From: an uncultured Eubacteriales bacterium
Lineage (GTDB): Bacteria; Bacillota; Clostridia; Oscillospirales; Acutalibacteraceae
Reading direction: 5' to 3'
NCBI GenBank assembly: GCA_951801675.1
Contig: CATONX010000004.1
Coordinates: 62,001-126,000 of the forward strand
DNA length: 64,000 bases
A model generated the notes under the pieces. That model did not search any database. It had not been told where the DNA came from and worked only from the letters and a program-made list of their open reading frames with translations. Shown here piece after piece: positions 31,545 to 32,132 of the stretch. Each line of letters begins with the position of its first letter. Position 1 is the stretch's first letter. The translations under genes and the position numbers were made by a program.

Positions 31545-31582
31545 GAAAAAAGTCCGTAACCATGAATGGTTACGGACTTTTT
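31545..31582 (-). terminator. Terminator hairpin behind repeat unit A
   Basis: AAAAGTCCGTAACCAT pairs with its complement around a 2-base loop and is followed by TTTTTTC on the minus strand. Confidence 0.8.
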
Positions 31583-31784
31583 GTGAGAGGCATGTGAAAC
31601 AGATATTTTAGCGTTTTCAGCAGGCGAATTCGAACCCTCGAGCCCCCGAAAAAGGTTGGTAGCAAACCGAAGCGTCGCGAGCGCGTTTATACCCTTTAGG
31701 GCACACGCAAGCGAGCAGCGAAGGCGCAGCGTGACCTTTTTCGGAAAAGGAGACGCGGCGGAATGAGCGCGCCGGTGACTTTTG
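31583..31784 (-). repeat. Structured repeat unit A next to tRNA-Ala
   Basis: About 200 bases, related to unit B at 31826-32020. Shared blocks are the GTTGGTAGC core, the GCGTTTA segment, the AAAAGGAG segment and the AGATATTTT segment. Arms CCGAAAAAGGT (31646-31656) and ACCTTTTTCGG (31734-31744) can form an 11-bp helix. No protein is encoded. Confidence 0.75.
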
Positions 31785-31825
31785 TAAAAAAAGTCGCCGC
31801 AAGCGATATACTGCTTGCGGCGATT
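31783..31825 (-). terminator. Terminator hairpin between repeat units A and B
   Basis: TCGCCGCAAGC (31794-31804) pairs with GCTTGCGGCGA (31813-31823), with T7 following on the minus strand. The right arm of unit A (GGTGACTTTT) can pair with the same bases, giving an alternative fold. Confidence 0.8.
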
Positions 31826-32020
31826 TGTGAAAGCCACATGAAAAAGATATTTTCAGCATTTCGGCGGTGGGAGTTGAACTCTCTCGAACTCGCAAAAAGT
31901 TGGTAGCGACAGCGAACCGTCGTGAGGGCGTTTACAACCGAACAGGTGAGCCGAGCGTGACTTTTTGCGAAAAGGAGGAGCAAGGGAGCGGGCGGATGGC
32001 TTATTTTCTGTCGCAGACAA
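31826..32020 (-). repeat. Structured repeat unit B next to tRNA-Ala
   Basis: The sister of unit A. Its arms TCGCAAAAAGT (31890-31900) and ACTTTTTGCGA (31960-31970) form the equivalent 11-bp helix although their sequence differs from that of unit A. The changes on the two sides compensate. Confidence 0.75.
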
Positions 32021-32055
32021 AAAATAAGCCGGAGCAAAGCGAACTTTGCTCCGAC
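32015..32055 (-). terminator. Terminator of the tRNA-Ala transcript
   Basis: GGAGCAAAG-CGAA-CTTTGCTCC hairpin starting 5 bases after the CCA end, followed on the minus strand by GGCTTATTTTTTG. Confidence 0.85.
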
Positions 32056-32056
32056 G

Positions 32057-32132
32057 TGGTGGAGCCTAGGGGAGTCGAACCCCTGACCTCTGCGATGCGA
32101 ACGCAGCGCTCTACCATCTGAGCTAAGACCCC
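32057..32132 (-). tRNA. tRNA-Ala (anticodon CGC)
   Basis: A full 76-base cloverleaf: acceptor GGGGTCT/AGGCTCC, D-arm GCTC/GAGC, anticodon arm CTGCG-TTCGCAT-CGCAG, T-arm AGGGG-TTCGACT-CCCCT and an encoded CCA. The anticodon CGC reads GCG, and the acceptor has the G3-U70 wobble that alanyl-tRNA synthetase requires. Confidence 0.97.

Follow-up and report, generated by a model that had tools for sequence, protein, structure and literature searches.

The 64,000-nucleotide stretch analysed here (the window; contig CATONX010000004.1, positions 62,001 to 126,000, assembly GCA_951801675.1) carries a single tRNA gene, tRNA-Ala(CGC), and two units, B and A, that lie in tandem 3' of it in its own direction, giving the order tRNA-Ala(CGC), B, A, terminator hairpin (Table 1). 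Each unit contains a hairpin, here called P1, and is closed by a short segment resembling the T-arm of a tRNA, here called the T-segment. The first-pass annotation had described the two hairpins, and both were confirmed at the positions and with the arms it gave: CCGAAAAAGGT/ACCTTTTTCGG in A (31646-31656 and 31734-31744, enclosing 77 nt) and TCGCAAAAAGT/ACTTTTTGCGA in B (31890-31900 and 31960-31970, enclosing 59 nt). Its estimate that about two thirds of the sequence is shared agrees with the 70% match measured over 84 nt. The same annotation had assigned a trailing terminator to each unit; the hairpin following B proved to be the start of unit A, and the one behind A probably represents the terminator of the tRNA in a displaced position. 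Right at the CCA of the tRNA, ahead of B, stands a terminator hairpin as well, so that read-through into the units should not be the default. When the window was searched against Rfam, only the tRNA reached threshold, and the P1 and unit sequences matched no family.

Table 1. Parts of the tandem units behind tRNA-Ala(CGC), in window coordinates
Feature	Position	Strand	Remarks
tRNA-Ala(CGC)	32057..32132	-	CCA encoded; ARAGORN; insertion point right after the final A
Unit B, 231 bp, non-coding integrative unit	31826..32056	-	between tRNA CCA and unit A; absent in G002
B leading hairpin CGTCGGAGCAAAG..CTTTGCTCCGG	32029..32056	-	terminator-like, immediately after CCA
B second hairpin GGCTTATTTT..AAAATAAGCC	31998..32030	-	93% complementary
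B P1 hairpin (arms of the first-pass annotation plus inner helix)	31890..31970	-	family model R1 score 111 bits
B T-segment: T-arm-like start, AAAATATCTTTTTCAT core, ACA end	31826..31883	-	model R2 score 71 bits
Unit A, 244 bp, older tandem member	31582..31825	-	A-like unit alone behind same tRNA in G002
A leading hairpin TCGCCGCAAGC..GCTTGCGGCGA and T run	31786..31823	-	
A P1 hairpin, apex 18 nt longer than in B	31646..31744	-	R1 score 76 bits
A T-segment	31582..31639	-	R2 score 49 bits
Perfect 17-bp hairpin and T run after A	31546..31582	-	probably displaced tRNA terminator (role inferred)

Comparison within the genus yielded an allelic series behind tRNA-Ala(CGC), with no unit in G001, an A-like unit alone in G002, and B plus A in the window. 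The joints are exact, as the CCA is followed in G001 by the genome's own terminator, in G002 by AAGCGCCGCAAGC and the A-like unit, and in the window by CGTCGG...TTTCACA (the 231 bp of B) and then AATCGCCGCAAGC and A, with the dinucleotide CA bounding B on both sides. The series and its joints indicate that B was cleanly inserted between the tRNA and A, or else cleanly lost elsewhere. As a separate observation, the slot behind the same tRNA-Ala in G001 (L178:1345-2993) holds genes for an ArsR-like regulator, a permease and a thioredoxin-like protein instead of A and B.

P1 folds as one hairpin of ~80 nt, with a 10-bp outer helix, a covarying inner helix and the conserved internal-loop bases CACGC / CGCTACCA. 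Across 70 aligned relatives, 96.2% of cells were paired, as against 87.2% after shuffling, and 12 of the 22 pairs had changed on both sides, in keeping with the earlier claim that the arm differences are compensatory. The covariation score was 0.297 compared with 0.132 for shuffled alignments (0/500), a test that the tool warns is inflated by relatedness, and for this reason more weight is given to the slide control, in which displaced versions scored 0.088 at most, and to the variety of pair types, as in one example pair with 34 CG, 21 GC, 7 UA and 2 AU. Compensatory change in the P1 arms is not due to chance, and our guess is that the hairpin acts as a structure for recombination or mobilisation.

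Further copies, which the first-pass annotation had proposed to look for in this genome and its relatives, were found in both. The genome of the window contains five P1 hairpins, namely A, B and one each behind tRNA-Arg(ACG), tRNA-Ser(CGA) and tRNA-Pro(TGG), all on the tRNA strand, and B is 100% identical over 180 bp to the copy behind tRNA-Arg(ACG). Among the genomes compared, which are mostly metagenome bins, copies were detected by blastn in 9 of 60 relatives, and a covariance model detected P1 in 22 of 197 genomes of the order and in 2 of 299 genomes drawn from the phylum, both of them inside the order. Such a patchy distribution fits mobility. Unit B had no match in phage and plasmid collections, and viral contigs gave one 17-mer match whose context did not match. 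A pattern scan of named genomes produced at least 118 stretches, and the real matches listed from it belong mostly to Clostridia (Oscillospiraceae, Acutalibacter, Christensenellaceae).

The position of P1 relative to tRNA genes was counted for 88 copies among the matches listed, those at contig ends having been left out. In 39 of these, P1 lies less than 150 nt behind a same-strand tRNA (mode 75 nt, 25 tRNA kinds), and in a further 11 less than 700 nt behind one; there was no case of an opposite-strand tRNA or of a downstream tRNA. The remaining 38 have no near tRNA, and among them tmRNA precedes L144 and, at second order, L085, cut-off tRNA 3' ends precede L158, L050 and L089, and a T-segment-like end precedes L130. 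Thus the question raised at the outset, whether copies follow other tRNA genes, is answered affirmatively for at least 25 tRNA kinds among the matches listed. CA stands directly before 67 of 134 unit starts, as against a background of 6%. One further set of copies is of another kind: in G168, twelve copies of a P1 variant (L213-L224), which begins GCGTCGTCGC and ends ..TTGCGTGCTGTCGCACGC, are dispersed between genes, most of them near-identical and all without tRNA or T-segment, and these represent a recent burst. A recognisable T-segment is present in just 16 of 104 P1 units of the pattern set (among the matches listed), and this scarcity, together with the dispersed copies of G168, shows that P1 and the T-segment are separate modules and that P1 may move by another route. 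Units L010 and L030, which have no T-segment, share a different tail, GCGCCTTCGGCGC...CCCTCGCACCA, that finishes like a tRNA CCA and constitutes a second end type.

The T-segment is 55 nt long (consensus GGTTCAACTCCCACCGCCGAAATGCCGAAAATATCTTTTTCATGTGGCTCTCACA), starts like a tRNA T-arm and ends in ACA (64 of 68 T-segments). It also stands behind genes, forming consecutive cassettes of one to two genes on one strand behind tRNAs. Examples are an array in G050 that reads tRNA-Ser, DUF6886, T, ORF, T, ORF, T, GNAT, T (where T denotes a T-segment), another in G140 that reads tRNA-Ser, GNAT, T, transglutaminase, T, P1+T, T, and two arrays in G166, behind tRNA-Val and tRNA-Tyr, composed of a 23S-IVP four-helix protein, a partner ORF and an HTH gene. 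Other cargo includes NUDIX, dCTP deaminase, DUF952, methyltransferase and sigma-factor genes, and many cassettes have no Pfam match. A sequence model placed T-segments in 58 of 197 genomes of the order and, at a stricter cut, in 7 of 293 genomes drawn from the class, including ten in G485, a member of another order, where five of six fetched regions lie behind tRNAs. A terminator-like hairpin follows within 85 nt in 45 of 68 cases, compared with 29 of 340 random places, and the longest flanking ORF is on the same strand in 51 cases and on the opposite strand in 11. A same-strand tRNA is found within 2.5 kb upstream of 26 of 42 T-segments (opposite 1, downstream 0), a share that is not fully unbiased because the loci were in part found via P1.

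Exact boundaries were also observed for the gene cassettes. An HTH cassette behind tRNA-Val in G485 is 93.7% identical over 1,570 bp to one in G050, a genome of a different order, and the homology stops at the last base of the T-segment. At the other end, one cassette that occurs in G166 behind both tRNA-Val and tRNA-Tyr (81% identical over 974 bp) has homology starting within the last bases of the tRNA.

Of the T-segments examined first, three closely trail the last gene of a large serine recombinase triplet (L294, L238 and L281), with a gap of 15-30 bp in L294 and L238 and one extra ORF between in L281. Triplets adjoined by a T-segment or T-arm-like end were seen in L294/L330, L238, L329, L331, L335, L336 and others, and belong to one clade, whose members are found mostly in triplets on conjugative-looking elements. 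In a protein search, the closest relatives of the recombinase that these T-segments follow had such an end after the stop codon, namely those in G106, G019, G187, G139 and G119 (65-100% identity) and, in the next tier, in G019:C58, G139, G106, G226 and G186 (48-54% identity); more distant recombinases showed no such end apart from one chance-like motif, the background being 177 of 3300 scanned intervals. On the tree, the end label requires 2 changes, compared with 9.4 when shuffled, and 10 of the 11 labelled rows group together with support of 89/88, the labels of L329 and L339 having been set by hand for a T-segment after an extra ORF or a motif near the edge of the scanned stretch. Gene order in G187 runs from tRNA-Ser(CGA) through ~40 kb with conjugative-looking genes (by eye) to the triplet and a T-arm-like end, and in G019 from tRNA-Trp through a truncated recombinase to a T-segment, an arrangement that would be compatible with decay of an ICE/IME. 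A search of the window's genome at E 1e-60 yielded no recombinase from this clade, and A and B are therefore probably stranded there.

The space between tRNA and unit is also entered by other kinds of recombinase. L230 has a tyrosine integrase followed by a cut-off tRNA 3' end and then a unit, and in L231 (G004) a single serine recombinase lies beside a unit, so a recombinase next to a unit is no proof by itself. The 605-aa serine recombinase of G004 was considered as a driver and rejected, as it is part of a ~11-kb element between tRNA-Ala(GGC) and its unit. That element, on G004:C9 (L239:10530-10605, L231:10126-11943), also carries type-I-restriction-like genes and has CTCCACCA at both ends.

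In total, A and B very probably belong to a mobile family and reached their place at the tRNA 3' end by insertion, and the first-pass proposal of a mobile repeat is borne out by the many copies in relatives, the exact joints, the tandem accretion and the occupation of other tRNA genes. The reading as a whole, which we consider likely, is that these are gene-less integrative units at the CCA of tRNA and tmRNA genes, probably moved by the serine recombinase clade; a serine-recombinase route for the units is itself likely to about the same degree. Units of ~230-245 bp would insert immediately 3' of the CCA, whatever the tRNA, and behind tmRNA too, and as each starts with a terminator-like hairpin, proper termination of the tRNA transcript should be preserved. 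The likeness of the T-segment to a tRNA 3' end would allow later units to join either at the tRNA or at the T-segment, giving tandems in which the newest unit sits next to the tRNA, as B does here. The candidate recombinases are those of the clade with a T-segment or T-arm-like end directly behind its genes, and a core of 2 bp, CA, would account for the use of any tRNA as target.

An unlikely alternative account is that these are ordinary tRNA-end islands, made by tyrosine integrases, decayed to small CIMEs that piled up and spread by homologous recombination between tRNA tails of similar sequence, with no dedicated system. The 3' ends of tRNA genes are the classic target of tyrosine integrases, accretion of CIMEs has been described (PMC5704250), the gene order of L230 is of this kind, and gene conversion could yield the 100% identity of B behind tRNA-Ala and tRNA-Arg. 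However, the right end of an island repeats its own tRNA, whereas here a single T-segment sequence stands behind many tRNAs and across orders, small single-gene cassettes with exact joints recur, and in the closest loci it is serine, not tyrosine, recombinases that directly precede T-segments. We regard as distinctly unlikely a hairpin mini-transposon of the IS200/IS605 or REP/RAYT type, moving as single-stranded DNA with a preference for hairpin-rich tRNA gene ends. The exact CCA/ACA joint, the tRNA strand bias and the T-segment held in common with gene cassettes are at odds with it, and no Y1/HUH transposase was noticed beside units in a non-systematic look, although covarying imperfect hairpins with conserved internal-loop bases, the near-identical dispersed copies in G168 and the absence of long terminal repeats would suit such an element.

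The first-pass annotation had also put forward a new RNA, supplied by read-through from the tRNA, and selection of the hairpin as a small RNA or structured tRNA trailer would account for compensatory change, conserved loop bases and the location behind tRNAs. It is nevertheless very improbable, as a terminator hairpin lies between the tRNA and P1 in both window units and in most of the copies that were read, many copies are found away from any tRNA, P1 is distributed patchily (22 of 197 genomes), and Rfam matched nothing beyond the tRNA in the window and only tRNA and tmRNA at other copies. An RNA function of P1 is not supported.

The integrative units and their T-segments share features with several known systems. 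An integron cassette is defined by an attC site recombined by the IntI tyrosine recombinase, and the arrays here resemble those of integrons in being one-strand series of one- to two-gene cassettes, each with a short conserved end site, in carrying similar kinds of cargo and in that the anchor end appears to be where new cassettes come in. They differ in that the anchor is a tRNA 3' end and not attI, the end site copies the tRNA T-arm, the associated recombinases are of the large serine type, 230-bp units without genes are frequent and a terminator stands at the unit start. IntI was not seen among 40 proteins scanned or in the mapped loci, and by eye the T-segment lacks attC-like end boxes. 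More tentatively, the system may be a serine-recombinase counterpart of the integron, in which the tRNA or tmRNA 3' end is the capture site, the T-segment the cassette site and the triplet-bearing conjugative elements the enzyme source.

Gene capture behind tRNAs is usually attributed to tyrosine integrases, with one tRNA per element. A and B keep both ends, contain no recombinase gene of their own and stand in tandem at the target, as do CIMEs and accreted ICEs or IMEs, in which site-specific tandem accretion leaves integrase-less remnants with their ends and an intact target (PMC5704250), but the known tRNA cases involve tyrosine integrases with one tRNA target each, whereas here one end sequence is common to many tRNA kinds and tmRNA, and units are as small as ~230 bp. 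Streptococcus ICEs with a serine integrase triplet integrate into mutT, traG or hsdM, disrupting them, with direct repeats of 2-8 bp (PMC4701971); they likewise end in three genes for large serine recombinases beside the attachment site, and their repeats would fit the CA seen here, although the T-arm-mimicking end and the target at the base after CCA are different. Use of tRNA genes by serine recombinases has been called rare (PMC3218068), and the Mycobacterium AICEs and phage phiRSM1, which combine a serine recombinase with a tRNA target, use one tRNA gene each, with no cassette arrays described there.

REP/RAYT and IS200/IS605-derived repeats are short intergenic hairpins with mismatched stems, as is P1, which differs in its longer hairpin, its fixed place at tRNA ends and its T-segment end. 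In our open literature search no description of the unit family was found, and this family, large in gut Clostridia and present behind almost any tRNA gene, is apparently undescribed. If the proposed reading is true, gut Clostridia gather cassettes with a single gene or none behind many tRNA genes simultaneously, and a common tRNA-mimicking end behind at least 25 tRNA kinds would explain a large unannotated share of their gene-content variation. Integron-like capture outside integrons would follow from this shared end, serine recombinases would gain a target present in every genome, and the T-segment would make cassettes and element borders searchable.

Two further observations concern neighbouring structures and enzymes. 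The 5' arm of the leading hairpin of B (32043-32052) can also pair with a stretch just 5' of P1 (31975-31985), GGAGCAA with TTGCTCC, and across copies this third arm before P1 (GGAGCAA/TTGCTCC, GGAACA/TGTTCC) gives a match of 5.28 compared with 4.93 for permuted pairs (0/300), a lead that could stem from the relatedness of the copies. In L322, L325 and L326, paired serine recombinase genes from another clade terminate facing a tRNA-Leu or tRNA-Pro 3' end, and serine recombinase targeting of tRNAs may thus be commoner than thought.
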